Source: Agelas oroides (taxonomy: Eukaryota > Porifera > Demospongiae > Agelasida > Agelasidae). Taken from it: a stretch of 64,000 nt of DNA. Positions 11,289-64,000 of this stretch are shown here, one piece after another. Position 1 is the first letter of the stretch. Each line of letters opens with the position of its first letter. Made by a program: the position numbers and the translations under genes. Under the pieces are notes generated by a model. It did no database searches. It had not been told where the DNA came from and worked only from the letters and a program-made list of their open reading frames with translations. The stretch covers positions 13,673,011-13,737,010 of the forward strand of contig OX422185.1 in assembly GCA_949130485.1 (NCBI GenBank). Reading direction: 5' to 3'.

Positions 11289-14200
11289 ATGGCGCAGGTA
11301 TGTAAAGTGTAGCTATGTAACGATGTGAATAGGTTGTGTAAGTCGAGTCACTATATGACAAGATACTTTGGGCTGGCCTTCGCTATAGCCAGACACTTGG
11401 TGGGGAAAGCAAATCTGGCGAAATATAATTACATGTGCGCGTGGAAAAATTATGTAACACGCACGGATGCGTATAACCCTATTCCCAGGCCACGCCTAGT
11501 TTTTTTCAGCGAAGGCCTGGAAAGGAAATACACTAGACTAGAAAGTCTTGGACGAGAATGCAATAGACAGTTGACTAGACCCAATTTTCCTGTGGGTACA
11601 AAAATGCAGTCTAAACCTAGTTTGGTTCCCAGACCCTTCCTGTATGGGCGGGGCGAGAAAGGAGAGGGAAGTCAGGGTCTGGTGAATAACTCGACCCCAA
11701 TGCGGATCCACGGCTGCATTCCTGCCATCAGTGTTGGTGAGGGAAAATGCGAATGTCAAGTAGGTGTGAGTCGTGAATAAAATTTCGTGTGAATGTGTAG
11801 TGTGGACATGTGGCTGCGCGTGTGTCATACGATAAACTTGTAAGTATTCGTGGTTTCGCAACTATCAATTATAAACATTAATGAAATTCCGTGGATCAGC
11901 GTTGGGGTCGCCAGTCCCTCTCCTTTCTCGCCCCGCCCATACAGGAAGGGTCTGGGAACCAAACTAGTCTAAACCATATTGTCATGGTTTTTGCAATACT
12001 ATCCTACCAAGGGGCAAAATCAATGAATAGTACCACAAAGTGTGAAACGTTCTGCAGCGTGAAAAGGTCTCTGTGTGTAGTTATACAGTTGTACCTCTAT
12101 CCCCTGGCAGGAGTGGTCTTTGGCGCTTAACAATGGGATGAAGATTCCGGCCTTTGGTTTAGGGTAAGTGTAAAATTAATTAAGTCATTATCCTGTGTTT
12201 GCATACATGAAGCAGAGTGGAGCAATTGGTTCTATCCGTGCATCAGTCAGTCGGTCGACAAAAAGTATAGTAAAATTAGCCTCATTCCCCAGCCTTCCCA
12301 CCATCCACTTTTTGATCACTTGCAGTATGCAAAAAAGGAGGGGGAAGGCTTGGGAGATTCAGTCACGTGAATACATGACATCAGTGTCTACTAGGTAGAC
12401 AGAGGGGAGAGGAGTCCCTGATCGAAAGAACGAGCTTGAGGCCTTTTTTGTAGTTTCCGCCCCAAGCGCTGGAGTTTCAAATGTTTGCAAAGCGAAAAAC
12501 GTGCCGCTCCTGGTTCCAACTGAAGAACTCGTGCGCAAAATGCATTCTTTCTATGGGGGATCCCTCCCCCCCTCTGACTACCTAGGTAGACACTGACGTC
12601 ATTCATGTGATAAAATGAACCAGGCCTTCCTCCTCCGTTTTTTCCATACTGCAAGTGATCAAAAATTAGACGGTAGGAAGGCCTGGGAATGAGGCTATAG
12701 TAAATTCATTCCAACAGTGGATAGGGTGCTTTTCCAGCTCCATGTATCAATCACTAGAAAGACGATGAAGTGGTTCTGCTTTTCTAGCGATTTCTTATGA
12801 CCATGAGTGTCTGAACTGTACATATACAGATGGCGAAATATCCAAAGCCATAAATGAGTATGCCCATCGCTGATATACATGTCAGGGTTTAATTTGGGGT
12901 GCACGGTGGGGTGACCGTGAGGCATTTGCCTCCCCTTGAAAGCCTCTCCGATCTATTAGTCATTTTCCAAAATTTAATACAGAAAAAGCATGCAACATAG
13001 ATAGTAAATGCATATTTGTTTCTCTAATCCATGTCAATTTTCGTCCACCCTTCCCTCCCTTCCTCTCTCCCTCCTTATCTCCCTCCCCATCCTCCCTCCT
13101 TCCCTCCCTCCCTTCCTCTCTCTCTCCCTCCCTCCCTCCCTCTCTCCCTCCTTCCCTCCCTCCCTGACTCCCTCCCTCCCTCCATACTATGATTGCTAAG
13201 CATGTGGCTGACAAAGCCAGGTGAGGCAGAGGAGGTGGTAGAAGCTGCCCTAAGAGCCGGTTACCGACGATTTGACTGTTCACCACGTTACAATAACGAC
13301 AAGGAGGTCGGGAAGGTGCTGCAGAGGTGGTTCAAGGATGGACGTCTGAAGAGAGAGGAGATCTTTATCACTTCCAAGCTACCGTGAGAGAGTACTTAGT
13401 GGAGGAAAGGAGAATGGGAGGGGAGGGGGGGAGGGGGGAGTAGTAGCACATGGAGGAAGGGAAGGATGGGGGGGAAGGGAGAGGATAGTGGAGGAGGGGA
13501 GGTAGTCTTGTGTTGCCTCCCAGTGGGAAACGGTCTGGTGAACAAAGTCGAATTTCTTGGGCTTATTCCCCAAAAGGGATTGTGAGATCATTAATTATTA
13601 CATAGCACTTCTCTTACAACAGTAAAATTAGTTATCTCTACTCGAGTATCTGTACCTTTTTTGAGCCGGGTTTGGCGTAAAATAATTTGAACGTTGCTAG
13701 GTTACACTGTCGCAAAAGTGTGTGCTAGCCCAAGAAGTTTGACTTGATTCACCAGACCGTTTCTCCTCGTGAGAGGTTGGGGTCTGGGGACGAGACTAGG
13801 GGTGGAGGAGGGAGAGGATAGTGGAGGGGGAGGCAGTGAGAGGAGAGGAACGCGGGCTGGGCACAACACCCGTATCAGCCCTGCACTTAACAAAAGTTTA
13901 GTGATACAGCGCTTGAAATGTGGGGATGCGTTCAAAATACCGTATAGCACTAAATCTTTAATTTCGCAAATTTTCCACCGTTTGTGAAAATATTTCAACG
14001 ATAATATTCACACACAGTTTACATGCTCTGACTGCAAGAGCGTCGATGGACAACATCCCTGAGCTAAGCTGCTGAATCCGAAACGATACGGCATTATTTG
14101 CTGACAGCTGTGGGCTCCAGTAGATGACAATGTGACGGTGCATGTTAGATAAACTGCCACGCCCATAGTATATTATGTATGTGGCATGCGCATGCAGCCA

Positions 14201-17200: not shown

Positions 17201-20200
17201 GAACGGGGGGCTAGAGTAAGAGCGTGTAACTCCAATAGAAGCCCGTAGTCCAGTCAAAATTATTGAACTGTACTAAAAATAGAACATCCGGCACGTGCTT
17301 AGCAACATATCTACGTCAGCTGCACATACGTGTTACTGTTTTTAGTAGTGGTGGTAAATTCCGACCGGTTTGGAATTTTACGTAGTTACACGCTCTTCCT
17401 CTAGCCGCCCGTTCATATGTGCTCTTGTCTGAGATAAGCTAATAACTGTTCGTTTAGAAGACAATAGACACATAATTTTCACCGGTTAAATTTGAACTGA
17501 CTGACAGAAATTGCTGTAAATCCGCCCCCCTATGTGTATGGCATCATGACTGTAATGCACCAGTAACAACAGAGGAATTTCTCATGAACAAAAGAAATCT
17601 CACCTGATGTCTGGCACGTGGGCCCAAGGCCAACTTGCCTTGGGGTGTACTGGTTTGCATTGGGACATACTGTTGTGTTTTGTCTGTTACATATGCACTT
17701 ACAACATCACGGAAATCTTAGAAATTTTACTGTTGACTAAACAGTGCATGGTGAAGAAATCTTACTAACACCAGTGGGTCTGAGATCAACAAAAACATCC
17801 ACAACTTTAATCAGAAGTTTAATAATGTACCGTTGTTTATTATGACTTTTGAATCCCTCATATGATTCAAAGCTATGTATATACTGGAAAATATCACGAG
17901 TTTGTTGCCATCTGTATTTTTTAAACAAATCTTGCATTATTTCGTCTGAGACTAATAAACTATTGCAATGGAACGTATTATGACTGTTATATATGTACAG
18001 TCGAACCCGCTTAATGAACACCCCTCAACAGCGGACACCCACGATATAACGGACAATTCTGAAAGTCCCGACTGTCCTTCCATTCGCTTCAGTACTTAAG
18101 CAACCCCTGAATAGCAGACACCCCGCTACTTCGTATAACAGACAGTTTTCATGCTCCCGATTGTAGGCAAACAATACTTAATGACTCCGATTTAGCAAAC
18201 ACTCATCGAACTTTTCGAGCCCCTGATGTAAAATGCAAATACAGGAGGAAGTCACTTATCCGAACATGTTGGTACCAGAGGGTGTTCAGATAACTGAAAT
18301 GTTCGGATAAGTGAAACAATACTATTTGTCATCAATACCCTACCCCATGTGACTGAGTGTGTTGATTGTAGCTAAGCAATTCACTGTGGGTGGTAGCGGT
18401 TGTGATTGTAACCAACACACATTTTACAACACTTTCAGGATAACAGTGATGGTATGCAGGTGACTGCATGTGATGTCCTTTCTAATGAAGTTTAACTGGT
18501 ATCAGTTAAACGCAGTTAACAGGAACGGGGTCTTACCCGCGCTTGGAATTATTAAGTTTACAGAAGGCGGGGCTGTTAGTAGTGCACATGCGCTACAGCG
18601 TCAGTTAGCCTCGTGGCCTCGTGCTGGTGCCAAGCAGTGTTCATCAGCAGTGTTCGCCATAGTCCGTATCCTTTGTCATCCGCTCCTAACATGTCTCAAC
18701 CACCCCCTTCTACCTCGCGAACCACCGAAGAGCCCGTCATAGAGCGACAGGAGACTCCAGCTGACCCCCCTTCCACTGTGGACACCATCGTGGCCAAAGT
18801 GCTGGAAGCGCTCCAAAAGCAACAGCAGCCAGGAACTTCAGGACCCTCCTTAGGCTCAAGTGGTAAGTAAAAACAGCCGGCATGCCAGGCAATGCTCTCT
18901 CCTCCCGTGGCTACTCCACTTCCCCAAGGAAGTGTGACACGCAATGTGCTAGGGAGGGAGGGTGGCCGTGCAAGGCGGGGCGCGTGTTGCAAGTGAGCCA
19001 AATAAGCAAGAATAGTGTGCACTGGCAATGGCGAGTAGGCACACTGGTTAAGCAAGGCCAGTGAACAGGGCAAGGCAACCAGCTAGGGGAGTACCAAGCA
19101 GTTTAAACTCCCTTCTTGGCTGTTATCATGCAGGTGCACTTTTGGGAAAGCTGCCCACACCTGAGCAGCTGGAAGAACTTCAAGAGTTTCAAGACCAGCC
19201 AGCGGTGCCAGCTCAGCAGGAGCGGGAAAAGGCCGGCATGAACAATCAACCAAAGGCAGTGTTAGCAGCTACAAAGCAGTCCACGTCCACCATGGTAATG
19301 CTAGGGGTAGGCCTGCCTGCCCTGCACAAGAAACTCGTGGACAAAATTGAGGCAGGCGAATATATTGATTTCACTGAGCTCCCGCCGGCGAGGGGAAAAT
19401 CCCGATCTATTTTACCAGCGGTGGAAGGCCAGGTGCTAGTAGTGCAAGCAGTGGACCTCCTGCAATCTCGCCGGGTGATTCCTGACCTGGCAACATGGCT
19501 GCAGTGCTTCGCCATCTATGCAGCAGTAATTGCCTCTAAACAGCCGTCCCGCCTCCCAGACCTCCTTGCCTACATGTCAATAATCGCAAAGGCTAGCCAA
19601 AAGTTCTTATGGCCATCCTGGGTGGTATACGACCAAAACTTCCGGCAGGAAGCTGCCAGCTGCGGGAACTCCGAGTGGGCCAGGGTCGACCCAGGAATCT
19701 ACGCTCAATGTTTCACAGACATGGCAATTGGGTCGGAAGGGTGGTGCAAGCACTGCCAGTCAATAGAGCACACCTCTGAACGCTGCCCGCTAGTTCCAGC
19801 TTATCCGAACAGCATGGAAGCAGGCTTGCAAGGCAGGATTAAGAGTCAAAGACGGCCAGGAGCGGCACTAGTTCCTCCCCCACAAAAGCGAGTTCAGATG
19901 GCGTACCCCGATGACTACTGCATTAAGTTTAATCGTTTCAAAGGTGACTGCAAGTTTGGGAAAGCCTGTCGTTTTCCGCACGTCTGCAGTGCATGCAAAG
20001 GGCCACACCCTGTCAGCAGGTGTGATCGGGTGCGAAATGCAGAGCCAACCGTTTCAAAGTGAACTGAGTATCATTCAGAGGGCATGTTCCCAAAAACTAC
20101 TTACTAGTGTTGTGCTGATATCAGACTGTTCATGTATGTCATCACTTTACTCTCACCGCTGTTTCTAATTACCGCTCATCTGCTTTCATTGTCACTGTCT

Positions 20201-23200
20201 ATTATAATCATTTGGTCTAATTAGTAAATTTGATGCAGGCTGCTAGCTGAGTTGAGCAAGTGCAGGGCAGCATGTTTCCACCTCTTGTTCTTCTCTAAAG
20301 TTCTCCGCCTATACTCCTCTGTCCTCTCTCATTCTCCTACCCTCATATTCTATTCTTTTTGTCATCTGTTGTCTCCTGCCGGCATGCACAAAAACAGCAC
20401 ACTATGAAGCCGCTCTTTATCTCCACAGAGTGCGTGAAGAGTACCGTGGCAAGACACAGCAGTTATCCCTACACCCCCCAACTACTGGCCCTTGATGCAT
20501 GCAGGCCTTGTGTACCTGTGGAGCTACCGCATGCTTTGTGTGAAGTGACCACCCCTCTGTGCATCCAAGCGTGGGAAAGAGAACTGGCACATCACCCGGA
20601 CCAGCAGCTAGTGGCATATATCCTTAGCGGAATAAAAAATGGCTTTCGCGTGGGGTTTAACCATGGAGCTCTTGCTCTGCGAATAAAAGGGGGGAATATG
20701 TTATCAACCAGGCAAGCCCCTAACGTAGTAGAGAATTACCTCAAAGAGGAGCTGGAGCTGGGTAGGGTCGTCAAGCTGTCAAGCTCCGAGGCGTTAAAAC
20801 TCGGGGTGCACTGTAGCCCATTTGGGGTGATACCAAAAAAGCATAAGCCGGGTAAGTGGAGGCTGATCATAGATCTGTCAGCGCCTGAAGGCTCAAGCGT
20901 CAATGACGGCATTGCTAAGGAGCTCTGCAGCTTAGCTTATACCTCAGTTGACGAGGTAGTAGCGTGCATATTAAAACAGGGGAAGGGGTCGCTACTAGCA
21001 AAAATGGATCTAAAGCAAGCTTATCGAAATGTTCCCGTCCACCCGCAAGATCGCCTGCTACTTGGAATGGAGTGGCAGGGAGACGTCTTCGTTGATAAGG
21101 CGCTCCCATTCGGACTGCGGTCGGCTCCTCTGATATTCTCAGCGCTGGCGGACTGCCTGCAGTGGATAATGGAGCAGCGTGGTGCCGATAATGTGTTTCA
21201 CTACCTGGATGATTTTTTGACCGTCGGCAAGGGGCGATCCCCACAGTGCAGCGCCAATTTAGAGGTCATGAAGCACACCTGCGCAGACACTGGTTCTCCA
21301 GTGGAGCCAGAGAAGCTTGAGGGCCCAGCTACAGTAATAGGTTTTCTGGGGCTGGAACTTGACACCAATGAGATGGTAGTCAGGCTCCCATCAGATAAGC
21401 TTGCACGCCTGATGGAGATGCTGTCTGCTTGGAGGGGCAAGAAAGCCTGTAGAAAACGTGAGCTACTCTCTCTAGTAGGGGTCCTGTCCCACGCGAGTAA
21501 AGCTGTGAGGCCAGGGAGAGCATTCCTTAGACGCCTCATCGACTTGTCGATGGTGGTGAAGCATTTGGATCATTATATCAGACTCAACGGATCAGCGAGG
21601 TCAGATATAGAGTGGTGGTTTCGCTTCGCTAGTAAATGGAATGGTACCGCAATGATGACAGTAGTTGACAGAAGCAATCCGGTGGCATTGATCACATCAG
21701 ACGCTTCTGGTAGCTGGGGCTGCGGGGCCTTCTACCTGTCCCAATGGTTCCAGATCGCATGGGGCGGTCCTGTAGCCGAGTCCTCTATTACTGTAAAGGA
21801 GCTGGTGCCAATTGTGGTGGCTGCGGCAATCTGGGGTAAATCCTGGGCTGGTGGCACTGTATTAGCAAAATGTGATAATGCTGCAGTGGTAGCAATGATC
21901 AATAAGGGCAACTGCAAAGAACAGGAATGTATGCATCTGCTGCGGTGTCTTTCCTTTATTGGTGCAGAGTTCAACTTTAACCTGGTTGCTACTCATGTTG
22001 AAGGCCGGGAGAATGTGTTGGCTGATGCGCTTTCCAGAAATAATATCTCTCTCTTCTGTCAACTCTACCCGCAGGCTCATGCTACCCCAACCCGCATCCC
22101 GCCAGAATTGCTGGACCTTCTTGTCCTGTCCAAGCCCGACTGGACATCAGCAGCTTGGACAGAGCTGTGGAGCACTATTTTCGCCACGGTCTAGCAGAGT
22201 CCTCTCGTCGTTCCTATAATTCAGCAAAGAAACGTTATGTGGACTTCTGCTCGGATGCTGGTTTTCTTCCCGTTCCCGCTTCGGAACACCAACTGTGCCA
22301 GTTCGTCTCACACATGGCTGACGTTGGTCTAAAACACAAAACCATCAAGTGCTACCTATCTGCAGTCAGGCATCTTCACTTGGAAGAGAAGCTACCGGAT
22401 CCTGGTCTGTGCAACATGGCAAGGCTTGAGCATGTTCTGCGTGGTGTTAAGTCACTACAGGCCAAGCAAGGCTCTCAGTCGAAGCCACGTCTCCCTATCA
22501 CCCCTACAATCCTATTAAAACTACGGAAAGTGTGGGACTCGCGTCCAACAGATAAAGACCGTATCATGCTATGGGCAGCATCGTGTATTTGCTTTTTCGG
22601 CTTTATGAGAGCGGGGGAAATCACAGTCCCGTCAGACACTGCCTATGACGCATCAACTCATTTAAGTGTTAAAGACGTGTCGGTGGATAGCAAATCTAAT
22701 CCTGGGATGGTAAAACTACACCTCAAAGCTTCAAAGACAGATCCTTTCCGGCAGGGAGTAGATATTTTTGTTGGCAAGACAACAGATCGTCTCTGCCCAG
22801 TTGCTGCATTACTATCATACATTGCTGTGAGAGGCTATGGCGAGGGCCCACTCTTTATTTTTAGCGATGGGCGGTTCCTGACTCGTGACAGATTTGTTGC
22901 TAAAGTACGTGAGGCGATGAGCTTAGCAGGTCTGAACTACAATGACTATTCAGGGCATAGCTTCAGAATAGGGGCCGCGACGACAGCTGCCCAGAGAGGA
23001 ATCAGTGACTCCACAATCAAAATGCTGGGACGGTGGAAAAGCTCTGCATATGCATTGTATATAAAGACTCCCAGGGACCACCTTGCCAAGTTTTCAACCA
23101 CTTTGGTGTCGGAGGACAAGTAAGGATACTAAGTTGTCTAAGAGCATACTGTCATGGCTAGCCTCTTTCTTTGCTTGTATTGTATTAATGCAGTTATTAA

Positions 23201-35524: not shown

Positions 35525-36955
35525 TCATGCCTTCTGCAGAATGCACAATGCTCCCTCACACTCCTTCAGGTAATTAGGGACATGAACTTCTTGTATGCGT
35601 TTACACAAACCACTTTTCACCATATTTTCAAGTGTATCTTTGAGGCTGTCATTAACTGCTTGACACTGAGGCTGTAACAGTTCAGTTGCATTCCAGAGCA
35701 AAAGAACTACGCCATCCTTCTTAACCAGGCGAACCATTTCTTCAATGGTGATTTCGGGATTGAGAAATCCTGAAGTAAGAAAGGCTCCGACACAAACACA
35801 GCTGTCAAATGATCCACTAGATAGTTTCCTAGCTTCCTCTTCAAATGCTCCTGAAATTACCTGCTCATAAACTTTCTTTTTTCGCAAGCATTTCAGCATT
35901 TCTTCACTTCGATCGAGTGCAACAAGGTTTGTAAAACCTGCTGCCAACAAAGCCTCCCCCACAAGTCCTGTCCCTGCAGCCACGTCTAAAACTTTCCCGC
36001 TTTTCGCTTCAACTGATTGAGCTAACGCATGTGCAGCAATTTGGGGGCCATTGTAAATGCCTTTCATTTGGTGGTCATAATACAACGCACGATGACTAAA
36101 AAAGTGCTGCACATTATCGGCTCCCACCTTCCCCCACGGAATTTCCATCTCGTAGGCCACCACAGAATTGTATAACTCTGGACGACGGAGGGAGTTGTAG
36201 TCGAATGAAGGTCTTTCAGTAGCGTTCAGTGGAATTGTAGCTATTAGCATTGTTTCGTCTTTAGTGGTTGTTGACACAAGACATTCCGCCCTAGGATCGC
36301 ATACACGAGACATGCCTACGTTTTTTTCACCGGCTAAAGAAACGTAGGCAATGTAGCAGCGGTTTTCAAGTGCTCGAGACGGAACTATCACTGACGGAGT
36401 TTTCTCGCGAAGAGGGTCGTTGCCCACGCCGCTAGCAATTACAACTAACTGGGTTCCGCCGTTGTTCACCATGGCTCTGACGTATTCCGCCATGCAGACA
36501 TCTGCAGAGATACCCAATCCGACCTTCATTCCGGCATCCCAATCGACCACAGTTAACGCATTTCCAGGGGTATAACCCGAGGTCTCATCCACTGTCGGGA
36601 AAGGGTGAGCTTGGCGGTAATTTGAGACGCGTTTTCCACGACTGTCGAGGAACATCAGCGAATTATAGCGGGTGCCCTTTTCCGCCTCAGAGTAACCATA
36701 GATCACAGCGATGTCCAATTCCTTAGCAGCCTTAGCAATCGTGTTTAAAGCAGGCCCTTCTTGTGTCTCCGACAGATCACCACCATTATGGAGAACCAGT
36801 TCTCCAAACAGAGCAAGGTCTGCACCGGATTTTGCAGCTTTTTTCATCCAACTGATAACATTCTTGATGTTAGCTTGTGGATCATTGGGTGTCGGTTTGA
36901 TTTGGCACAGTGCAATAATTCTTGACTTTTTCCTGCGGCTTGTCCGACTTTCCAT
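35525..36955 (-). CDS. Nitrilase-like / METTL27-like methyltransferase fusion protein, 476 aa
   Basis: One uninterrupted frame; the likely start is the ATG at 36955 (MESRTSRRKKSR), although the frame stays open to an ATG at 37099. Residues ~12-275 match the carbon-nitrogen hydrolase (nitrilase) fold: Glu in LALFGELVLHNGG (E52), NYRQAHPFP where the catalytic Lys belongs (Q115), and GISADVCMAE where ICxD belongs (S150). Thus two of the three catalytic residues appear replaced. Residues ~285-476 form a class I SAM-dependent methyltransferase with motif I LDVAAGTGLVG (323-333), closest in my memory to METTL27/WBSCR27 (LYYDHQMKGIYNGPQIAAH, FDSCVCVGAFL). The substrate is unknown. Its intronless state contrasts with the intron-rich neighbours and suggests retroposition or transfer. 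Whether the nitrilase half is inactive is inference. Confidence 0.88.
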   Translation of the reverse strand: MESRTSRRKKSRIIALCQIKPTPNDPQANIKNVISWMKKAAKSGADLALFGELVLHNGGDLSETQEGPALNTIAKAAKELDIAVIYGYSEAEKGTRYNSLMFLDSRGKRVSNYRQAHPFPTVDETSGYTPGNALTVVDWDAGMKVGLGISADVCMAEYVRAMVNNGGTQLVVIASGVGNDPLREKTPSVIVPSRALENRCYIAYVSLAGEKNVGMSRVCDPRAECLVSTTTKDETMLIATIPLNATERPSFDYNSLRRPELYNSVVAYEMEIPWGKVGADNVQHFFSHRALYYDHQMKGIYNGPQIAAHALAQSVEAKSGKVLDVAAGTGLVGEALLAAGFTNLVALDRSEEMLKCLRKKKVYEQVISGAFEEEARKLSSGSFDSCVCVGAFLTSGFLNPEITIEEMVRLVKKDGVVLLLWNATELLQPQCQAVNDSLKDTLENMVKSGLCKRIQEVHVPNYLKECEGALCILQKA

Positions 36956-37941
36956 ATTTCGACGCGCACTTCGGTACAATGTCAGTATGGGTGGTCGCAC
37001 AAACGGTACACAATTTATGACCAGTGTGACGTAGCAGCGTTGGCAACACTTCCGTCTACGCATCCATGATCCAGCATACAAAGGACGATAGTGGGGCAAG
37101 CCTAGCCTCGAACCCAGGCTTTCCGTTCCGGATATACAAAATCCGGAACAGTGCTACATTGTTTCTACTAAGGCTTCACCAGTGCTATATAGTACTAGAT
37201 GAATGCAGGGCATTGTGGGGCGAGCCTGAGCAAGCAGTATGCCAAGGACTACAATTGCGCATGCGCAGTTCGTACACACGCGCGCGTACCCCTTCGCACT
37301 TGTCGAGGTGTCGAAGTTGGCGTGGCGTTTAGTAAGAAGTAAAGTTGCTGTTTGCTTACTGTGCCTCATCCAAGTGTAGAAATGACAAAGGCAGCGTTGT
37401 ACATTATTCACACAGGAATGACCTCGTAATTGAAAGTCTTCAATTCTTGGCCAACCCACATCTAGTTTTCTGCTTAGGGGTGAGAAACAATGAATTGGTT
37501 TGGAAGAGGCTAACATGCAATTTTTTGTGTACACAATCACCGTTATGGTTTATCAATTTTTGTTGTAAACAACATGACATTACACTAATAACGATATAAA
37601 AGTGATGACATAATATTTCCTGTTTGCATGAGAGCTTACATTGGAGTTTCTATCGACCAAATGAGCTTCAAATGGTAGTTTTTTTACACATTGCCAGTGA
37701 GTTAGTGGATGTTGGTTGGTTCAGTTTTTCCATTAGGGCTGTGTCATTGCTATCTCAACACCATTGTTGGTAGCCACAAAAGTTTTCCATTTTTTCTATG
37801 ACATTTTCTCTGAGAGTTTCTACTCCAGGTTGCTGAACGTTGTGCTGGCTAGAAAAGTCTATATTTGCATCATCATTGTCTCTGGCAGATTGTGTAGTGG
37901 AGACAATTGTGGCAAATGCTTCCCATTCTTGCTTACCTGGG

Positions 37942-50500: not shown

Positions 50501-53363
50501 ATGTCACGTTCATAACAGGCATGCAATTAAGATGACCAAAATTTGGTTGAAGTAATCCAAATGTTTTATAGTGATATACAGGATAGGTAGCGACCTCTCC
50601 CTCTAAGCCTCGACTCTACATGCTTTCCTTCAATCAGCACAAGGATCTGCTTCAGCTGATGGTTGATGCTGCAGGGGGAGAGGATGGGAAGGGAGAGAAG
50701 CTTACTGATGAACAGATTGTGGTACACTGCATTACATTCCTCTTGGCTGGCTATGATACAACTGCCAACACTCTGGCCTACACCTCCTACCTGCTTGCCC
50801 TAAATCCTGAAGTACAGGAGAAACTGCAAGCAGAAATTGATGAATACTTTGAAAGTAAACCAGTAAGTTATCTTCACCAATTGTGAATTAACATTGTTAG
50901 TGGTGTCTTCGCTAATCAACTGCATATTTGTACTTAGCCTCGTTCCCAGGCCACTCCCAGATTTTATCTCGCAGCTGTGGAGAATAAACGTTTTATCTCA
51001 CAGCTGTGGAGAAAAATCGATTTTTCTCCACAGCTGCAAGATAAAATCTGGGAGTGGCCTTGGAACGAGGCAATGTTGTACTAGCAGTAAGCTCTGCAAA
51101 AAGCAGTGGCGTAGCGAGGCTGGGGTACACTGGGGCACGTGCCCTAGCAACTAGAGACCGTGCCCCACCAATGCAGGTATGCATGCAAATTGTCGGCGCT
51201 GATAGTATCGTTGTAGATCGCGAAATGTGCGCTAAACGGTCTAGAAATCGAACCACTATGTATATCCGCAGAATTACGAATCTCATTACGCTCACGCGTG
51301 TTTGCCATATAAGTGACGTACACTGCACTACAATATGGCCTCGGAACCGACCTGGGAGGCTGTAAACTTCCAAAAAATTTCTGGAGGAGCATGCACCATA
51401 TCCCCTTCTGCACTTCGCGCATGAGTTCAAACAAACGTAGTGTGCCCATGCATGCTGTGCCCTAGCATCGGCGATGTCCTGGCTACGCTACTGGCAAGAA
51501 GTGACTTCTGTATGGCACCTTCACTTCCCTTCACAGGAGACATCTATGTACAGTGCCACTCAGGAACTGCAATACCTGGACATGGTCGTTCAGGAGTCCC
51601 TTCGGATGTACCCAGCATCACCACGGTATAACACTTGCAAACTTGAACTGTTTTCAATAGCTTTGATTCCTAATCCATCTCCAGTCAGGTTTGGTCATTT
51701 TCACTATCATAGGGAAGGTCTGATACAAATTCTCACATGTATAGTGTATGGAGACCTTCTATTACACCATGAAACTAAACTACTGCACTCTACTAAGTTT
51801 GTGTGGCAAGATAGTTAGCATTGTATCATTGAATTGTATTATTTGATGAAAAGTGGAATAAGCGTTCATGAAACCAGCTTTATGACAAAAGCAACCCACC
51901 AATGTTTTGACCAGATGTCTTACATAGCATGCCATGCAACAGGAGATAGAATGCTTCTATTGGAGATGCTTAGTACCTCATCTTCCTCTTTCAGATGTCT
52001 ATATTGAAATACCCTGACACATCATCAAAGATGAGTATTCCCCTCTTCCGTCAGTCAACCTTGATTTTCAACAGCCATTTGAGACATTCATTATGCCGAA
52101 GAGCTCAAAAGTTCTTACAGCCATTGATACATCTCCAGTTGGAAATCACTTATTTGACTGCATTTGAACCAAAGGGCGTTTGGATAACTGAATATACAAG
52201 TGAAACAATACTACCGGGTATTTGTATACAAGCAGATTACTTTCCATTTAATGAACAGCAAAAAAAATTTGTGTTTGGATAAGGGAAGATTTGAATAACT
52301 GAAGTTAATTCAGATGAGTGACTTCCTAATGTAGTATACCCATCTATTTGATTCTGCATGTGATCACAAACTGTGGTGCACAAGGATGACCTTTTTTCAC
52401 TGTAATGTGCACTACAGCAATGCACGTCATTGTCTGAAGACTGTTGAAATCAACGGAGTCACCATTCCTAAGGGAGCAACAGTCCAACTCCCCATCCACC
52501 TCCTTCACTACAACCCAGAATTCTGGCCAGAACCGGAGAAATTTGACCCAGAAAGGTACTGTTCTCTTTCCTTCTTCCTCTCTGATCCTCCCTCCATCTG
52601 TTCTTCCCTTTCCTTCCCTAGGTTTACCCCTGAGGAGAAGGCAAAGCGACCTGCTCTCTGCCACATGCCTTTCGGCTGGGGCCCTCGCAACTGCATTGGA
52701 ATGAGGTTCGCCCTCATGGAGGCTAAGATGGCTCTCATTGAGATTCTGAAGAAGTATACATTTGTACAGGCTCCAGAAACGGAGGTTAGTTTTCTTGATT
52801 CTTCACTTTGACTAGGTATAGTGGTATGATTTTCAGTCAGTTTGTGTTCTGAACGCAATTGCATTGCCACCAATATATGTAAGGACACCTTAACATTTGA
52901 ATAGGATGTTGAAACAGGAAATATTATTCCATTAATAATTGTAGCCACATTCCTCCACTGTACCGCAACAGATATCTGTAGCAAAATGTACACACAAGAT
53001 ATCATCTGATGGGTCAAAGAGCCGAGATCTGACATCAACATACCACTTTACACTTATTGTGATAGAGACTGCAACTACTGTATAGCGACAAATTTTCGAG
53101 GGTCTAAAGAGCATGAAAACTGTGTCGCGCGTCAAAAATTTTCCTTGAAATATTTTCGCAAATGGTTGAAAATTCGCGAAATTCGCGAAATTAAAGACTC
53201 ACGAAAGTTTAGCGCTATACCATATAATATCGTTTCCTTGCACAAGCTGGAGTAAGTCATGTTAACTGCTGGTTCCCTCCAGGTTCCACTGAAGACTTTC
53301 AATGGTGGTGCGATTATGGCACCTCAAAATGGAGTTTACCTTCGGATAACAAGGAGGGACTGA
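40461..53363 (+). CDS. Cytochrome P450, clan 3 (CYP3-like), 13 exons, 509 aa
   Basis: Haem-thiolate mono-oxygenase anchored in the ER membrane, probably oxidising lipophilic substrates. Coding exons: 40461-40546, 41364-41460, 42586-42638, 43049-43145, 46404-46529, 46616-46704, 47614-47768, 49702-49832, 50638-50862, 51537-51625, 52418-52555, 52622-52784, 53283-53363. All introns are GT-AG with consistent phase; total 1530 nt. Residues ~12-28 are the N-terminal membrane helix. A GIKGPQPLPFYGSYKEI proline-rich hinge is followed by WKKAR (C-helix W135/R139), I-helix AGYDTT (315-320), ESLR (K-helix E373/R376), FDPERF, and haem loop FGWGPRNCIG with Cys453. LSPTFSAAKIK and GRVVNIQRGE also fit CYP3/CYP5 relatives. 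Length is typical. The exon-7 acceptor (CAG at 47613) was chosen by phase and homology. Individual CYP family cannot be assigned by eye. Confidence 0.95.
41499..41690 (-). repeat. Partial inverted copy of the 26369 MITE (P450 intron 2)
   Basis: AACCCAGACCACCCTCCAAAG, GTCTGGCGAATATAGTAC, GGGCTAGCTGTTGCTGTGG and TTCAGTAAATTGGAG match 26369-26983 in reversed order. Confidence 0.65.
41955..42350 (+). pseudogene. Open frame of unknown origin in P450 intron 2
   Basis: 131 codons with protein-like composition (KGSQVKAVVSKRPKSKSNS, then CVDDMALFDGNPIPLS and FPGKGALAFVRLF). It overlaps a second open frame upstream in another register (41858-42088), as expected for a decayed gene or transposon fragment. 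No family recognised. Confidence 0.25.
42742..42996 (+). repeat. Composite dispersed repeat, copy 5 (truncated)
   Basis: Hairpin half complete (CATATAGTACAAAGCTATACC to GGTATAGCTTGGTACTATGG); the second half stops after GATACGGATTCTCGC, 50 bp before P450 exon 4. Confidence 0.8.
43510..43823. repeat. MITE in P450 intron 4, shared with 13504-13798
   Basis: TAGTCTCCATGCACC...GAAACGGTCTGGTGAACC at the left and CGTTCACCAGACCGTTTCT...GGGCATGAGACTA at the right. Confidence 0.8.
43808..46030 (+). repeat. Higher-order tandem array of a 46-bp unit
   Basis: The basic unit is 46 bp (AATTCGGTGGGAGCTGGTAT, then TTGAGTAAACAAGTAAACAG, then TGAAAC). Three super-units start near 43808, 44747 and 45745. Each has a ~100-bp head (GGGCATGAGACTAGTATAGT...), a block of 46-bp units (about 8, 9 and 3) and, for the first two, a ~490-bp tail including AGCTAGACTATACTGTAAAA. 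Super-units 1 and 2 share their tail almost base for base. Because 46 is not a multiple of 3 and the unit lacks stops on the - strand, long spurious frames appear there. Confidence 0.95.
46871..47210 (+). repeat. Composite dispersed repeat, copy 6 (P450 intron 6)
   Basis: ATCACCATAGTACAAAGCTA to GAGTTGACGTATATATGATAA, both halves present. Confidence 0.8.
47411..47511 (+). repeat. (CA)n microsatellite
   Basis: About 100 bp of CA dinucleotides with sparse CG, TA and TG interruptions, in P450 intron 6, 100 bp before exon 7. Confidence 0.95.
48099..48517. repeat. 419-bp foldback element in P450 intron 7
   Basis: The whole stretch is one imperfect palindrome: CTGCAAAAAGTATTTGGTTA at the left against TAACTAAGTAGTTTTGCAG at the right, meeting at ATCCATCTGCTGGCTATTAT / ATAATAGCCAGCAGATGGAT with a ~12-bp loop. 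The right arm recurs at 60515-60755. Confidence 0.88.
48625..49355 (+). repeat. Duplication plus 33-bp minisatellite in P450 intron 7
   Basis: GTGCACTGGAGGC...TTGTTACAGCCTGTGGCATG occurs at 48635 and 48937. After the second copy, units of 33 bp (CATGACTAAGCTTTCACTAT then AGCCACATAACAC) repeat about ten times to 49355; several units lack the AAGCTTTCAC part. Confidence 0.92.
50211..50567. repeat. MITE with AACACTTGGGTTACTTCAAC ends, copy 1
   Basis: Left AACACTTGGGTTACTTCAAC and right GGTTGAAGTAATCCAAATGT are inverted. A ~410-bp copy in the same orientation is at 53681-54098, so P450 exons 9-13 lie between two direct copies. Confidence 0.85.
50935..51071. repeat. hAT-like MITE in P450 intron 9
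   Basis: TAGCCTCGTTCCCAGGCCAC to GTGGCCTTGGAACGAGGC, with the palindromic interior ATCGATTTTTCTCC. Flanks TTTGTACT/GTTGTACT. Confidence 0.85.
51104..51493. repeat. 390-bp hAT-like element CAGTGGCGTAGC, P450 intron 9
   Basis: Starts CAGTGGCGTAGCGAGGC and ends GTCCTGGCTACGCTACTG. Flanks GCAAAAAG and GCAAGAAG (8 bp, one change) fit hAT transposition. CAG...CTG termini also fit. A 3'-end fragment of a relative is at 39806-39849. Confidence 0.78.
53076..53222. repeat. MITE with ACTGTATAGCG ends, copy 3 (P450 intron 12)
   Basis: TACTGTATAGCGACAAATTT to TTTAGCGCTATACCATA, arms with AATTCGCGAAATT blocks; ends 60 bp before exon 13. Confidence 0.65.
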
Positions 53364-55863: not shown

Positions 55864-58800
55864 TTATTCTTTAATGTCATATGATAAGTTGCTTGTATCA
55901 TCACGGTGGTATGTCACAGCTTGACTGTTGCTAGGTGGTGGGAATTCATCCATTAATTCAGAAAAAGCTGCTCTTGCTGCAGCCTGGCTGAACGCTAATA
56001 ATGATTCGTCAAAGCTTAGTTTCACAAGTTTCAGTGTTTTATTGATACTTAGCAATTGTGAAAGAGCCTTTCCACCTTCTTGTTTGATTTTATGGCTACC
56101 GTCTAACTGAAGGCAAACAAGAGAGGTATTATTTACTAGTGCTTCAACCATAACACGAGCTCCCCTGTTACCAAGTGGGCAATCATCAAGCTGTAGTACC
56201 TGGAGGTTTGAATTACTTGCAAGCAGAGATAATTTTCCATTACATCTGGAGAGAACAAGACTCATGCCATATATTTTCAGACTAAGCAGAGACGATTCAG
56301 CTAAAAGAATGCCGAGCAAAACTGGTACTTGCTCTCTGAGGAGTGAAGTGCATGAAATATCCAAATATGTTAGGGTGCCAGTCGGTGTTATTAGCTGCCT
56401 AAGTGCCTCGATGTCTGCAGTACTCCAGTGAAAACCTTGGGGAAATTTGAGAGAATGCAAGTTTCTACATTCGACTAGTGAATGAAGGATTACAGAAAGA
56501 TCCATGGAATCATCCGCCTCTAGGCTGTCAGCGTCATAATAATGTAGCTGAAGGCTTATGTTTTGCAGACTACTCATTTGTTGAAGTAATTGTGCTAGGC
56601 ACAAAAGTGTTGGTTTATCTACCCTGCATTCATCTAAGCTAAGTGTACGAATTTTTTTCAGAATGCTAGGAGGAAGCTGACTGAGATAAGATACGCCTTC
56701 TTGCCGCAAGGGAGTTAATCTAAATGAAAGTGTGTCAACAAAGCTAGAGATTTGTTGATTAGATAGCATGCTTGAAGTAAACATCTCTAAGAGGTCACCT
56801 TCAAGGTTCAGTTCCTGAATGATCACCTTCCAAGAACACTGATTACTGTGAGCAATGCAATAGCCCAGGGCAAAAAAGTCGAAGGGGTGAAAAGATTCTG
56901 AATTTCCTGTTGAGAACACTACTTCTTCAGAAGAGAGTGCAGTATCACAGCCCTTAGACTGTGCCTCAAATAAGCAACGGAGCATAATGAGACTCACAGA
57001 TGTGCTACCCTCTAATATTTCTAGTACTGAGCTATCCAGTTTTACATTGTCTGAATAGGTGGTCTTGGCTACTTCCCATCCAATTTCATCAAGGCCCGTT
57101 ATGCCTGCAAAAAACCTCCACACAACATCTAAATGATCCTTCCTGGAATGCTCTAGGAAAGCCTTTTTTTGTTCATTAGGGGAAAGCTGAGCAATATAAA
57201 AGGCTGCAAGGTATTCTTGAATCGTTAAGTGCAAGAAGCCATGGGTAACTCGTCTACCAGTGAAAAGTTCGGCTGAAGCAGTAGTGAACCCCAAAGCTTT
57301 GCTACCTTCTGGAAGGTTCTTGAAAACTAGCTGCTGTTCTAGAACACCATTGAAAGCAATCTCTGTTAATTCAATAAGGGGTTGGTATGCTTGCTGAGGT
57401 AAATCGTGCAGTGTATCTGGTAAAGAGCTAGGGTCGCTAACAAGCTTGGCACCAATGAGATGTCGCTGAAGCAAGAGAAGGCAAAGATCAGTGTAAAGAT
57501 CAGTCAGGGTGTTGGGAATGGGTCTATCCTTTGTCTTGTTCTCCTGATACACTTCCACTACAATAGCGGTATTAAGAGGAATATATAACATCCCCTTAAT
57601 GGCAGGTGTACTAGAGACATACCTTTCAAAATCATAGAGAGTTTTCGTACCAGAGCCAAAGATACTCTCTGCATATTCATGTATCTGCTCTTTAGCAAAG
57701 CCTAGAATTTCAATGTGTTTGTCTGGCTCCTTGATTCCAACAAGCTGAGTGACTGCTGAAGGACGACTGGTGACCAGAATAGAAGCATTTGGAAGGAATA
57801 CACCTGCAACAATTTGAGCAAAGAGTGACATTCGGTTTGTCCTGACTGAAGAAGGAAGTTCGTCTGCACCGTCCATAATGAGCAGAATCCCCTGCCCATC
57901 ATTCCTGCTGACTTCTTGTGTGACAGCCTGCTGGAGTTCTTGGTCGGTGTGGTAAAAGAGATCGGACAGTGTTGTTGCTTTCTGCACTCGTTCATCACGA
58001 AGGCGAATGATAACAACTAGTGAATACTGCCTTAGTGCATCGATTTCATCCCACCTTTTGCAGAGTTCCCATGCAAAGGTACTTTTTCCCACTCCTGGAG
58101 CACCCTCTACTAGTACATACCTTACACCTTCGTCACAGTGACTCTTGAGCACTTCTTCAAATTCAATTGGCTCTTTCACTTTCATGATCTGATCTATATC
58201 ACCATGAAGGGTGGCTAGTGTGAACTCATTTGCTTGCGCTCGATTCACCCGCTCCTTTTTGACAATTGCCAGGTTCACGTACTGTGTGCTTGGAGTTCTC
58301 GGCCACTTGTAGTCTGGAGAAACGGAGGCAGTGATATAGTATGCCTTTAGGTAGTTTGCAAATCTGTCAAGTGGTCCCAAACTTGAGGAGCCATCAGACT
58401 GTGAGTCCTTTCCTACAGCTGGGATATACAGTAGGTAGAACATAATTTATACATATATTACCAGGTTCATTATATATATAGGCTTCCCTCCTACACACAG
58501 ATTTGTGGGAGGAGACTTGGAATTATACATTTAAGGTAAATACAGCAATCTTGGTATCGGCAATACTTACAGTAGGACTCAATAAGTTTCTTTCCCATTT
58601 CTTCTAGTGGCACAATGGATTGCAAAGAAATTACAAAGGTCTGGAACACATTGGGGTTTGATGAGATTTGGCCTTCAACTTCATTCAAGAGTAGAATATT
58701 TTTCTCATCTGATGACAGCCCAAGAGCTGATAGTTTGTTCATCAGTGATCTGGAAACAACTCCCTTTGAGTAGAGATGACTTGCTAGTTCCAGAGTATCA

Positions 58801-61800
58801 GGTATGACTAGCATGAGTGTCGCATAATGTGTCCTGAATGCTCTTGATGCAGCTGCTGGGTCAACTTTCCCTCCGAAAAGATCAGACACTTTAGAGTCCC
58901 TGCAAATGTGTAGTAAATGTATCACAAAAGATTATGATCCAATATACTGTTAAACTGATTTGCTTTTACCATGCTGCAACTGTGCTTTACCTCACCAAAT
59001 ATTCAGTACATTGTTAAACGTTAGCATAATGTGTTAAAATTTTGGAATGGCCATATGCAAATGCATATAACAAATGAAGCACCATCTGATTTTAAATTTT
59101 CACATTAATCAGAGAGTCGGTAGACTCTCTATTTAGGGATGGCGTTGATGTGTAATGTATGCAATACTTAAGCAAAACCTGAAAACCATGGTCAAGGTTG
59201 TGACTGCATCATAGTTGTGACTGCTGACTACAAATTTCAGAGTCTTGACATTTGACAGTGACCATTGCCCCCTTTGGAGCACCTTACATCTGCAAGCTAT
59301 GACTGTAGGAGGCAGACAGCTACATGTAGCAGCAGAAGAGAAAGAGTGTTGCTCAATGGAGAGTATTGCAGGGATCCATAAAGAGCAGCAAACTTCACTC
59401 ACAAACTTCCATGCTGCTAACTACATGTACAGTTGCCTAAACATAAATGGTGACCCTGCTAATGCAGCTGGAGCTTACCAGCAATCCTGTACCATTATTC
59501 TTTTCTTGCTAATACTCCCCCCACCTCCCACTTACACCAGAATGAATAAAAGTCCACTGGTCAAAGTCCACTGGTCTATGTTTTTGTGTTTTTATTGCAT
59601 GGGCAATATGTTATAGCTATAAGGATTTGTTATAGCATAGTACCAGGGATTTATGGCAGTAAACAGACCGAGTCCAAGAGCGCAGCTCGAGGACGAGGTT
59701 TGCTTACTAACAGTCATAAATCCCTGGCCACCTGTGCTATAACCATTACATATCCCACCTGATATATCCCACCTGATCGGTCTATTGTTGTTATTACTGT
59801 AAACACATCTATACATGTGCAAGTGTTTACAGTAACTTCAATATTGTTTACACACAACTGTATATAAAAACTACTATAGTATGGCAATGAAGTGTACTGT
59901 AAACTAAAAGTACATGGAGAGGGAATTATGAGCCATATTTTCCCTTGTAGCCCCCAGGGAGGGAAATTATCACAGACACTCCTGGAAGCTTGCCTGTTAA
60001 TAGCTGTGGTTTTCATAGTGAAAGTTAGCAAACCACCAGACAGTAGGAAATGCTTTGTGGTTGTTATTTCCTTGTATAGTGGTGGGCATGATAGTTTACT
60101 TATATATCTAAATATGGAATGTGTAATTCCAAACAAACAAGGGCTGTTTGTGTAAATTGATTTCACCTTTCACTATGGGCCTCTATGGCAGTCTGTATGA
60201 TTACCATCACTATCACCATGTAGCACTCATCGCCACCTTGTGTGTCACTAATTAATAGCTTCCAACCTCTGAGTAACCAGCTAGAGCACATAAAAATGGC
60301 TGCCATTCTTATGGGCTCTCGTAGCCATGTAGATAGTTCAGCCAGTGCCAGGTAGTCACATGCATTGTAAAGGTTTCATTGTCCATTCCATTGTTCCACT
60401 CCACCATTCCATTCACCATTCCATTCCACCATTCCATTCACCATTCCATTCACCATTCCATTCACCATTCCAGTCCATATTCCAGTCCATATTCCAGTAC
60501 ACATGCACATGCATGGCTATTATCCTATTCAGAACCGCCCGGAACCAGATAATAGCCAGCAGATCGATGCTGATATGTTGACTAGCAGACAAGTGTCTGT
60601 GCTAGCTCTTTGAAGCTAGATGAAATTGTGAGGGGGTTGATGGATGATAATTGTGTTTTGGATTTCTTTTAATCATACTACCTACCTGCTCAATGAACCC
60701 TGAAACTGCAGCAACCATGCACTTACAGTTGTTTTAACCAAGTAGTTTTTGCAGTTAGCGATTAGAGACACCGAGTTTCCAGGCACATGACGCTCAAGAT
60801 GTAAAGACTTTATGTAGTCAAAGTTCTCATACATCAGTAAACATTTGTGGTATAGTTACTGATGACCAGAGACTAGTTAACTTAAGCAACACATGTAACC
60901 CGGAAATGTGTCCAATTTTTCCCCAAACCCTTATGTAGTCCCCTCACTACACGAGCTGATGCATTGGGTTGTTCATATTAGCCACATAGCTACCCATGCA
61001 TGCATGCCTCTCTCCCTTCCCAGAAAAATTGATGGCAAAGCTTACTACTTACTTTCTGTGGCCATAGTCCATGTGAGGAAATACAATGATTACTGCTTGT
61101 TTTTCATGACAAAGAAAGTGTGTTGGGGATCCCTCCCCCCCCCCCCCTCTGTCTACCTAGGTAGACATTGATGTCACTCACATGATAAATGCTCCCAGGC
61201 CTTACCCTTCATTTCCGTAAGTGATCTAAAACTGGACATGGGAAGGCCTTGGAACAAGGCTCTATACAGTACATTACTATGTGTAATGTTACTTTCATAC
61301 AGTCCAGTAATTAACATTGTGTAATCAATAAGTGCATGGTCATTCATATACCTAGGATTTTCCTTTTTCAACTGCTGCAGGATATCCGTGTTCATCAAAC
61401 TAGCAGTATTCTTGTCATGATCAGTTGTAACCTCTGAGATTTTGGATGTAAACACTACCAGATCTCTGCCAGTCAATTCTACTAGTAGACAAAATATAAG
61501 GAATCGTCACAACACCAACAAAGTAAAAAGCACAAAGCATGCAGTCCTAAAGCATGCTGTACTATCTGATCTCAGAGCTTTTATTATTACCAACTATCAT
61601 CCCATACTTTTGGTACGGATAAGATATTAATTGTTCAATTGTAACTTGAAAAGTATCCAGTTCGGTTGGCCGGAGTTAAACAAGCGCTAGGAAATTTGTT
61701 TAATGTAGCGCTGATTTGAAGGACTGATTCGGACATGACTCGAGTGCCTGCGTGGTCCAATCCACAAACCTAAATTTGAGATAGCTAGCTACATTGCGTG

Positions 61801-62019
61801 TTTCAGGAGCTGTTGAAATAACTTGATCTTTTTTTGTAATTCATGTAAATTCAGCAGGCACTATTAGCTAGCTACCAACTGAAGTATTTATTACTAACCT
61901 TTTCCTTTAGCTCTTTTGGGCTGCCTTATCGCCCACCTGCACAACAAACTGGTGAGTAGGATTGCAGTTAGAGCTACCAGAACAGGCAGATACTGTAGAA
62001 ACGTACTGCTGTCATCCAT
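55864..62019 (-). CDS. Membrane-anchored CARD-like/NACHT/LRR receptor (NLR), 4 exons, 1044 aa
   Basis: Predicted innate immune sensor. Coding exons on -: 62019-61899, 61481-61352, 58899-58571, 58418-55864. All junctions are GT-AG and the phases fit (121+130+329+2555 nt). Residues 1-10 are MDDSSTFLQY, 11-27 a hydrophobic helix (LPVLVALTAILLTSLLC), then RWAIRQPKRAKGK: a signal-anchor pattern placing the rest in the cytosol. Residues ~102-190 fold-match a CARD/death-fold (THYATLMLVIPDTLELASHL, LSSDEKNILLLNEV). NACHT: Walker A GAPGVGKST (299-307), Walker B LLIMDGADE (372-380), sensor TSRPSA, and HLTIQEYLAAFYIAQLS in the winged-helix part. LRRs (~790-1010) include LTYLDISCTSL, LQVLQLDDCPLGNRGARVM and LVCLQLDGS. 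Exons 3-4 are well supported. Exons 1-2 rest on phase, composition and splice sites; an ATG further upstream in frame (62130) is possible. Confidence 0.85.
59630..59930 (+). repeat. Dispersed repeat with CACCTGAT(C/T)GGTC, copy 3
   Basis: GGGATTTATGGCAG at the left is inverted at 59706 (CATAAATCCC), then CCACCTGATCGGTCTATTGTT, GTGCAAGTGTTTACAGTAAC and TAGTATGGCAATGAAGTGTA as in the copies at 16015 and 28660. Confidence 0.72.
60380..60490 (+). repeat. CCATTCCATTCA short tandem repeat
   Basis: About nine units of CCATTC(C)A(C/T) in 10-14-bp periods, passing into CATATTCCAGTC units. Confidence 0.85.
60515..60755 (+). repeat. Right-arm copy of the 48099 foldback element
   Basis: GATAATAGCCAGCAGATCGAT, GCTAGCAGACAAGTGTCTGTG, GAGGGGGTTGATGGATGATA, AAACTGCAGCAACCATG and CAAGTAGTTTTTGCAG in the same order as 48330-48517. 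Confidence 0.8.
61130..61262 (+). repeat. Single arm of the 12279 MITE family
   Basis: CCCCTCTGTCTACCTAGGTAGACATTGATG, then CTCCCAGGCCTTACCC and GGGAAGGCCTTGGAACAAGGCT, matching 12565-12696. Confidence 0.7.
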
Positions 62020-62069: not shown

Positions 62070-62077
62070 TGACGTCA
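62070..62077. promoter_or_regulatory. CRE/ATF-type palindrome TGACGTCA near receptor start
   Basis: Exact TGACGTCA 51 bp upstream of the proposed ATG (62019). If the longer start at 62130 is used, the site would be coding. Confidence 0.35.
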
Positions 62078-62689
62078 CGTACGAGGGCTGGGCCCATGCG
62101 TGGGCCACATGCCATGCCATGCCGTGCCATGGGGCCATGGACCTCAAATAATCACACACAACCTAACAACAGTAGAAGCAAGTCAGTGAGCATGTCTTTG
62201 ACTAGACAGTCAAAGCAGGAAAATGGCACTGGTCTGACTTACAGGTGTAACAATCTTGCCTGGGTATAAGCTTACCTATGCAATACAGGTAACACTATGT
62301 TACACACAGAAGCTGCAGCTACGTACACATTCCAAAAGGAGCACTCGGTACACTCAACTCGATTGTGATATGTTTCCTAGGCATGCAGACTGGGAGGATG
62401 CACTACTGCAATTGTCACATACGCATCATTGCCAGATTCAGCATACGTATATGGGGAACTGCACTGATAAAATGTTCTCCCTTAGACCAGATAGTGTTTT
62501 AGTTCATCACACCTTGAATGGAAAGAAAAACAGTAATACGTACAAAAGTAGCTACTTGTATGTGCCTACTATAGCTATTAGACTAATGGAGGGAGATATA
62601 AATTAGAGGGAAGGAAAAGGCGGGGAGAGGAGGCTGGGAGGAAGGGGAGGGGGGGAGGAGAAGGGAGTAGTATTAGATTTTCTCTCTCA

Positions 62690-63213: not shown

Positions 63214-63439
63214 CTACACAGGCTCGTTTCCTCTTGGCATGCACAGGACGAGAAAGAGTCAAATAATGAGCATGTTTTGATATACATATAGCTACCCTGA
63301 GCAAAACTTCTATATACAACAGTATAGACTGTCTGTTAAAAACTAACGCAGCTTCTTTGCAATTTTGAGCAGCTAGGCTACAGCTTTTTCTTGCTTTGCT
63401 ATTCCTGCAAAAAAATTAAATGTATACATTAATTTGCAT

Positions 63440-63740
63440 GCAATTGAGCCCTGTGGCCATCCTATGGAGTACTTTATAACAATTGGATCTGGCATTCCTT
63501 TTATGGCTACAGTTGAGCCCCGCGGCCATCCTAAGGGCCACAACGTTATGACGATTGGACCTGCCATTCCCTTTATGGCTACAGTTGAGCCCCGCAGCCA
63601 TCCTAAGGGCCACAACGTTATGACGATTGGACCTGCCATTCCCTTTATGGCTACAGTTGAGCCCCGCAGCCATCCTAAGGACCACAATGTTATGACGATT
63701 GGACCTGCCATTCCCTTTATTGGCTCCGGTGCAGCCGGCC
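63440..63740 (+). repeat. 72-bp tandem repeat, about four units
   Basis: Unit: GCCCCGCAGCCATCCTAAGG, then GCCACAACGTTATGACGATT, then GGACCTGCCATTCCCTTTAT, then GGCTACAGTTGA (72 bp). The two middle units are nearly identical; the first and last are diverged. As 72 is divisible by 3 the array stays open in several frames, which explains the long repeat frames on both strands. Confidence 0.93.
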
Positions 63741-64000
63741 ATCCTAAGGATCACAACTTCCACTCAGACATTCTGTCCCATAGGACGGAAGCGCTCCTGT
63801 GGACCCCAGGGTGAGAGCTCCCCCGGCCTGTATAAGCATATTTCCTACAGTAGAATGTCTTAGGGTGGTTCCTCCAGTGCATGGAGCTCCTGTCCTAGGG
63901 TATTTCCTTGCCTGGTAGTGTCATTTTAGTAAGAGCTTACACTTTTAGTTTAGTTTGAATCTCCAGTTTTAAAAGTTGTTTAGCTTCATGATCAATTACT

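Follow-up and report, generated by a model that had tools for sequence, protein, structure and literature searches.

Membrane-bound NLR-type receptors have been described in sponges, anthozoans and sea cucumbers. The available text of PMC12909245 describes transmembrane domains in the NLR architectures of the sponge Dysidea avara and credits Amphimedon queenslandica as the first such case. Anthozoan NLRs with 3–5 N-terminal transmembrane domains form a single anthozoan clade, and A. queenslandica NLRs may contain transmembrane domains without clustering with the anthozoan ones, according to the accessible portion of PMC5094078. The sea cucumber NACHT receptors AjNLRC4 and AjNLR-new were placed at the cell membrane by staining in the available parts of PMC8699970 and PMC13133943. 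In plants, RPS5 is acylated at its N-terminus and L6/M carry predicted signal anchors, as given in the part of PMC3801107 at hand. An initial annotation of the gene studied here, from the demosponge Agelas oroides, had proposed a membrane-tethered receptor with its sensor in the cytosol and held this arrangement to be non-standard for NLRs. The first part survives as the best reading of the sequence, but the second does not, since membrane NLRs are already known from the printed sponge, anthozoan and sea cucumber cases, as far as the available text of these sources goes.

The window (the whole stretch of 64,000 nucleotides that we analysed, G000:C3:13673011-13737010, from an assembly of 259 Mb in 141 contigs) carries the gene as four exons on the minus strand (Table 1), placed as they had been initially. 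The introns of 417, 2452 and 152 nt are all GT-AG with matching phases, and the four-exon join gives a single predicted frame of 1044 residues, in agreement with the proposal that two upstream exons join in phase to the CARD exon and the NACHT-LRR exon. Exon 2 is flanked by an acceptor ending in CTACTAG and by a donor, TAG/GTATAT, that is weak (4/7 by our own count). The frame of exon 3 has no Met ahead of the CARD and thus requires an upstream exon. Further in-frame ATGs are present upstream of 62019, at 62130, 62115 and 62097, so the N-end could be longer than modelled. The linker exon had been said to match nothing recognisable, and indeed it has no relative in its own genome and no Pfam match; exons 1 and 2 gave no match in the genome beyond the window itself, which counts against the anchor reading.

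Table 1. Positions in the window of the exons, domains and sequence elements of the receptor gene.
Feature	Positions	Strand	Remarks
Exon 1, MDDSSTFLQYLPVLVALTAILLTSLLCRWAIRQPKRAKGK	61899..62019	-	121 nt; donor AAG/GTTAGT; phase 1 at end
Hydrophobic segment, residues 11-27, predicted signal anchor	61939..61989	-	Kyte-Doolittle up to 2.13
Basic stretch RWAIRQPKRAKGK, predicts cytosolic C-terminal side	61900..61938	-	from sequence
Exon 2, linker VELTGRDLVVFTSKISEVTTDHDKNTASLMNTDILQQLKKENPR	61352..61481	-	130 nt; phase 1 to phase 2
Exon 3, CARD	58571..58899	-	329 nt; predicted fold
Exon 4, NACHT, helical domain, LRRs and stop	55864..58418	-	2555 nt with stop
NACHT, residues 293-447, with GAPGVGKS and LLIMDGADE	57658..58122	-	Pfam PF05729
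Top-scoring leucine-rich repeat, residues 928-948	56155..56217	-	Pfam LRR_6
TGACGTCA, CRE-like, possible promoter element	62070..62077		some 50 bases ahead of the ATG in exon 1

The domains behind the upstream exons are those of an NLRC-type receptor. Exon 3, previously described as CARD-like, is an N-terminal CARD by its predicted fold. The NACHT domain was matched with E 8.4e-21 and 74.9 bits against a cut-off of 26.7, and the plant-type NB-ARC, the kind to which the plant receptors L6/M and RPS5 belong, reached E 0.011, under its cut-off. C-terminal leucine-rich repeats of the NLRC type are indicated by LRR_6 (E 4.6e-4, but at 20.5 bits under the curated cut-off of 23.4) and by the resemblance of exon 4, from about residue 660, to the solved LRR proteins LRRC34 (E 3.3e-5) and DRC5 (E 5.6e-5). 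Exon 4 also has NLRP3-type matches in the PDB. No Ig family was among the 17 families that a search with the whole protein gave at E up to 10.

Exon 1 shows the acidic N-end, hydrophobic helix and basic stretch that had first been noticed there. Its N-end has two Asp, the hydropathy maximum (Kyte-Doolittle over 19 residues) is 2.13 at residues 13-31 compared to at most 1.79 in the rest of the protein, and the stretch behind the helix holds six Lys/Arg and no acidic residue. This is a predicted transmembrane segment such as is found in membrane-bound animal NLRs; hydropathy gives one in the N-terminal part and not the 3–5 of the anthozoan type. The protein begins MDD and thus lacks the Gly2 and small residue at position 6 of N-myristoylated proteins. 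Under the positive-inside rule the basic flank lies on the cytosolic side, so that the acidic residues before and the basic residues after the helix predict an N-end that is out and a C-end that is in. Exon 1 therefore has a pattern that predicts a signal anchor which is not cleaved off and leaves the sensor cytosolic. To our knowledge, no N-terminal membrane anchor is present in the CARD proteins Apaf-1/CED-4 and NOD1/NLRC4. By its length and position, the hydrophobic segment could also be a cleaved signal peptide, which would leave the receptor secreted or lumen-facing. We regard this as extremely improbable: signal peptides have a basic N-end and a small-x-small cleavage site, but here the N-end is acidic, six basic and no acidic residues follow right behind the helix, and no small-x-small site lies ahead of the basic residues. 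In known NLRs, the CARD and NACHT partners are cytosolic. The product is thus probably a CARD-NACHT-LRR receptor of the NLRC type that a lone, uncleaved signal anchor at the N-terminus keeps on a membrane. Some 10 residues would then lie beyond the membrane, and the CARD, NACHT and LRRs would be in the cytosol. We infer from the sequence that exons 1 and 2 are spliced to the rest and how the product is inserted, oriented and put to work.

A scan for an ATG frame with an N-terminal hydrophobic segment of Kyte-Doolittle at least 1.9, a net charge of +4 behind it and then a donor returned exon 1 as the single match on both strands of the window, 3 matches in the other loci (584.8 kb, both strands counted) and one match in 640 kb of second-order Markov sequence. 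Without the donor filter, the other loci yielded five candidates (L009, L010, L008, L042 and L067), among which L009 and L010 overlap exon 1 itself and L008 is a low-complexity run. The hydrophobic upstream frame of L042 was rejected as a transmembrane exon; it crosses a TTTC (pyrimidine) tract ahead of an acceptor. From 2 or 3 hits, the expectation for the 3.1 kb preceding exon 3 is 0.011-0.016 anchor exons (1.1-1.6%), and this is an upper figure because two of the hits are exon 1 itself. The coding score of exon 2 was higher than that of all 1303 open 40-codon null pieces, which were taken from both strands of 61300-59000 and 64000-62250, with the coding side of the score trained on paralogue NACHT exons and its background partly on the same null stretches. 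Exon 1 is not coding-like by this score (43% of the null pieces score as high). On synonymous codons alone, exon 1 is matched by 94% of the null pieces and exon 2 by 21%, so that exon 2 is not separated from them.

The codon usage of exon 1 and the weak donor of exon 2 would suit a soluble cytosolic CARD-NLR, whose true first exon lies elsewhere (in intron 2 or beyond the window) or which starts at Met70 in exon 2, leaving exon 1 outside the main product. Intron 2 holds 17 other ATG-to-phase-2-donor combinations of at least 5/7, which counts against the anchor, and a soluble form is also favoured by the relatives described below, 30 of 34 of which begin before the CARD without an anchor-like signal, and by L032, which has the same junction phase by our own reading and a short soluble first exon, MAQPGSMDKQET. 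Nevertheless, we consider a soluble receptor unlikely. No open 40-codon piece in 61300-59000 or 64000-62250 matches the coding score of exon 2 (the background having been trained there), and the context of Met70 is weak (TTGATGA). Exon 2 moreover requires an upstream phase-1 donor, and of the two in-phase ATG-exon donors of at least 5/7 found in the 2.5 kb upstream of it within the window, exon 1 has the better (6/7). Intron 2 is long compared to the other two introns, as would be expected if exons 1 and 2 were a separate small gene and the CARD-NLR began elsewhere. This is very improbable, as a donor leading in phase into the CARD exon, like that of exon 2, was also read in C15:1031358 and L032, and exons 1 and 2 have no other genome match that would mark a separate family.

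We also looked at the sequence upstream of exon 1. The CRE-like site there is weak promoter evidence because five copies occur within the window, and CpG content together with this site was rejected as evidence for a promoter, CpG observed/expected being 0.73 there (rank 270 of 1276 windows). A similar stretch containing TGACGTCA (GTAGACACTGACGTCATTCA) is present twice, at 12594 and 48535, and resembles a small mobile repeat carrying a CRE-like site. Several tandem copies of a unit of about 72 bases were seen by eye at 63416-63814, upstream of the gene. Cytochrome P450 exons (50587-52811, plus strand) adjoin the NLR gene. Elsewhere in the window, a single open frame at 35525-37153 (minus strand) encodes a fusion of a carbon-nitrogen hydrolase (E 1.8e-34) and a methyltransferase (E 1.2e-11), and a retroelement at 19052-23123 (plus strand), which we take to be DIRS-like in make-up, has one frame for a reverse transcriptase and another that is tyrosine-recombinase-like (under the curated cut-off).

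The same genome contains many relatives of the receptor, and this large CARD-NLR repertoire is in keeping with a sponge. Apart from the window gene itself, the CARD exon gave 116 matches at E up to 10, and the NACHT-LRR exon has at least 52 other main matches, plus 5 rows that represent additional fragments of genes already in the list. The NACHT-LRR search scored 53 of 389 candidates, and the top match among those scored was C2:1126552 (L042), with 41% identity. No relative was found in the prokaryote contigs scanned with the same exon. When the 30 best NACHT regions were placed in a tree, a group made up of the window gene, L043 (C15:1031358), L042, L053, L048 and L063 split from the other 24 (100/100), and after removal of L043, L053 and the duplicate L058 the remaining four still split off (100/99). 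The branching order within the six-gene group is unsure because of long branches, a midpoint root and rows picked by their similarity to the window gene.

Two members of this group have starts of a different anchor-like type. C15:1031358 (L043/L071) has an upstream exon at C15:1030208-1030338, where a second, better-placed ATG begins MGSSESKRDLPRVATSQQHRSGKSRREKR (MGSSESK) and the donor TAG/GTACCA leads into the CARD exon in phase 2, the same as in the window gene (phase by our own reading). C2:1126552 (L042, near 1126000) begins MGGLLSRLSSRRRHRYRH (MGGLLSRL), right after an acceptor-like site. Both starts have Gly2, a small residue at position 6 and a basic cluster, a make-up shared by Src-type myristoyl-plus-basic anchors, so that with the window gene three of the group of six have an anchor-like start. 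Outside the group, C4:50196 (L056, start near 53100) begins MGCSSSKPV, and the CARD gene L028 (C15 near 5077700) starts MGQTASSS. These four paralogues (L028, L042, L043 and L056) are those that fit a PROSITE-like myristoylation pattern among 34 readable paralogue N-termini, against 0.33 expected; the 34 are interdependent, many sharing MATN or MFSK starts, and each initiator was read off the open frame. They come from 25 of the 29 CARD loci and 9 further loci among the 29 NACHT loci, with L031, L034, L038, L039, L053, L063 and other NACHT loci (unread or unusable) outside the set. The other 30 N-termini have no anchor-like signal, and a transmembrane start was seen in none of the 34. Similarly, hydropathy in 60 rows of relatives exceeded 1.9 only in L069 (2.24), which we took as intron read-through. 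For L053, no first exon was found in the upstream stretch examined.

When CARD and NACHT loci were paired by distance, 3 of 4 intact, readable genes inside the group had anchor-like starts compared to 1 of 9 outside, an enrichment that is suggestive only, given a P of 0.052. Homology of exon 2 to the first exon of the C15 sibling was rejected, as 1766 of 2000 shuffles scored as high locally and 1547 of 2000 globally. For the C15 and C2 sibling starts, 172 and 28 of 2000 shuffles scored as high, and their likeness may only mirror their basic make-up. In the C11:1757013 region, L048 (L017) has a long Lys/Arg/Ser-rich stretch before the CARD that looks like a nuclear rather than a membrane signal; L063 has a similar stretch, but with a stop in frame. 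Downstream of the MGQTASS CARD exon, L028:2790-3140 has an open frame for a hydrophobic helix and, behind it, GPFVGREKQV, which resembles the start of another STAND-type ATPase; this may be a membrane CARD-STAND gene of a second kind.

We tentatively propose that the window gene and its closest relatives may form a subfamily of CARD-NLRs with interchangeable membrane tethers at the N-terminus: one member would use a signal anchor, and two an N-myristoyl group plus a polybasic stretch. A myristoyl-palmitoyl-like start is also seen in a more distant paralogue. If the proposal holds, early-branching animals would have arrived at the solution also seen in plant NLRs (L6 versus RPS5), with CARD signalling starting at the membrane. 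The starts of the siblings also bear on the choice of membrane. Anchors of the Tom20/Tom70 type have a short N-end, moderate hydrophobicity and a basic C-terminal flank. Exon 1 shows all three, with a single hydrophobic segment and a flank that is strongly basic, and could be a mitochondrial outer-membrane signal anchor of that kind, placing the CARD on mitochondria. MAVS, anchored by the opposite end, also places a CARD on mitochondria. This sub-case of the tethered receptor seems to us quite unlikely, since the same features suit a signal anchor of the ER or plasma membrane and the myristoyl-plus-polybasic starts of the siblings fit the plasma membrane or endomembranes better.

In the tethered receptor that we favour, a ligand or a disturbed host component would be sensed at the membrane by the LRR side; with nucleotide exchange the NACHT domain would oligomerise, and the resulting CARD cluster near the membrane would recruit CARD-bearing partners. 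By confining the receptor to a single membrane, for which the plasma membrane, the ER/Golgi and the mitochondrial outer membrane are candidates, the anchor would also raise the local receptor concentration. A real anchor would mean that an early animal NLR uses a CARD to signal from a membrane, with some relatives using fatty-acid anchors at the same place, and would make testable both the repeated origin of NLR membrane tethering, as in plants, and the site at which such CARD receptors sense. It would also be a warning for gene models, since those in which an NLR begins at the CARD exon may lack small exons further upstream that determine where the protein goes.

Like the window gene, the sponge NLRs of Dysidea avara and Amphimedon queenslandica have predicted transmembrane segments and are termed 'putative membrane-bound NLRs' in the available text of PMC12909245; the window gene is predicted to have a single signal anchor at its N-terminus, encoded by a separate exon, and these proteins are compared with it by their text description. 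The anthozoan NLRs share with it N-terminal membrane segments in an animal NLR, but as described in the accessible portion of their source they are multi-pass and belong to one clade, whereas the window gene is predicted to be single-pass with the CARD behind the segment. AjNLRC4 and AjNLR-new each have Ig domains and two membrane segments in the parts of the sources at hand, in contrast to the window gene with no Ig domain and one N-terminal segment. AjNLRC4 is described there without the CARD and LRR that the window gene has, and the NACHT domain of AjNLR-new is said to be extracellular, whereas that of the window gene is predicted to be cytosolic. Plant L6/M and RPS5 are likewise tethered to a membrane through their N-terminus, by an anchor or an acyl group, with both devices found among related receptors, according to the available text; plant NLRs are not CARD-NACHT proteins, and the resemblance is convergent at most. 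In the literature on sponge membrane-bound NLRs and on NLR myristoylation in invertebrates and Porifera, we found no report of acylated sponge NLRs. What the start sequences compared here suggest, putative lipid-anchored sponge NLRs beside a signal-anchored one, was likewise not met with in that literature.
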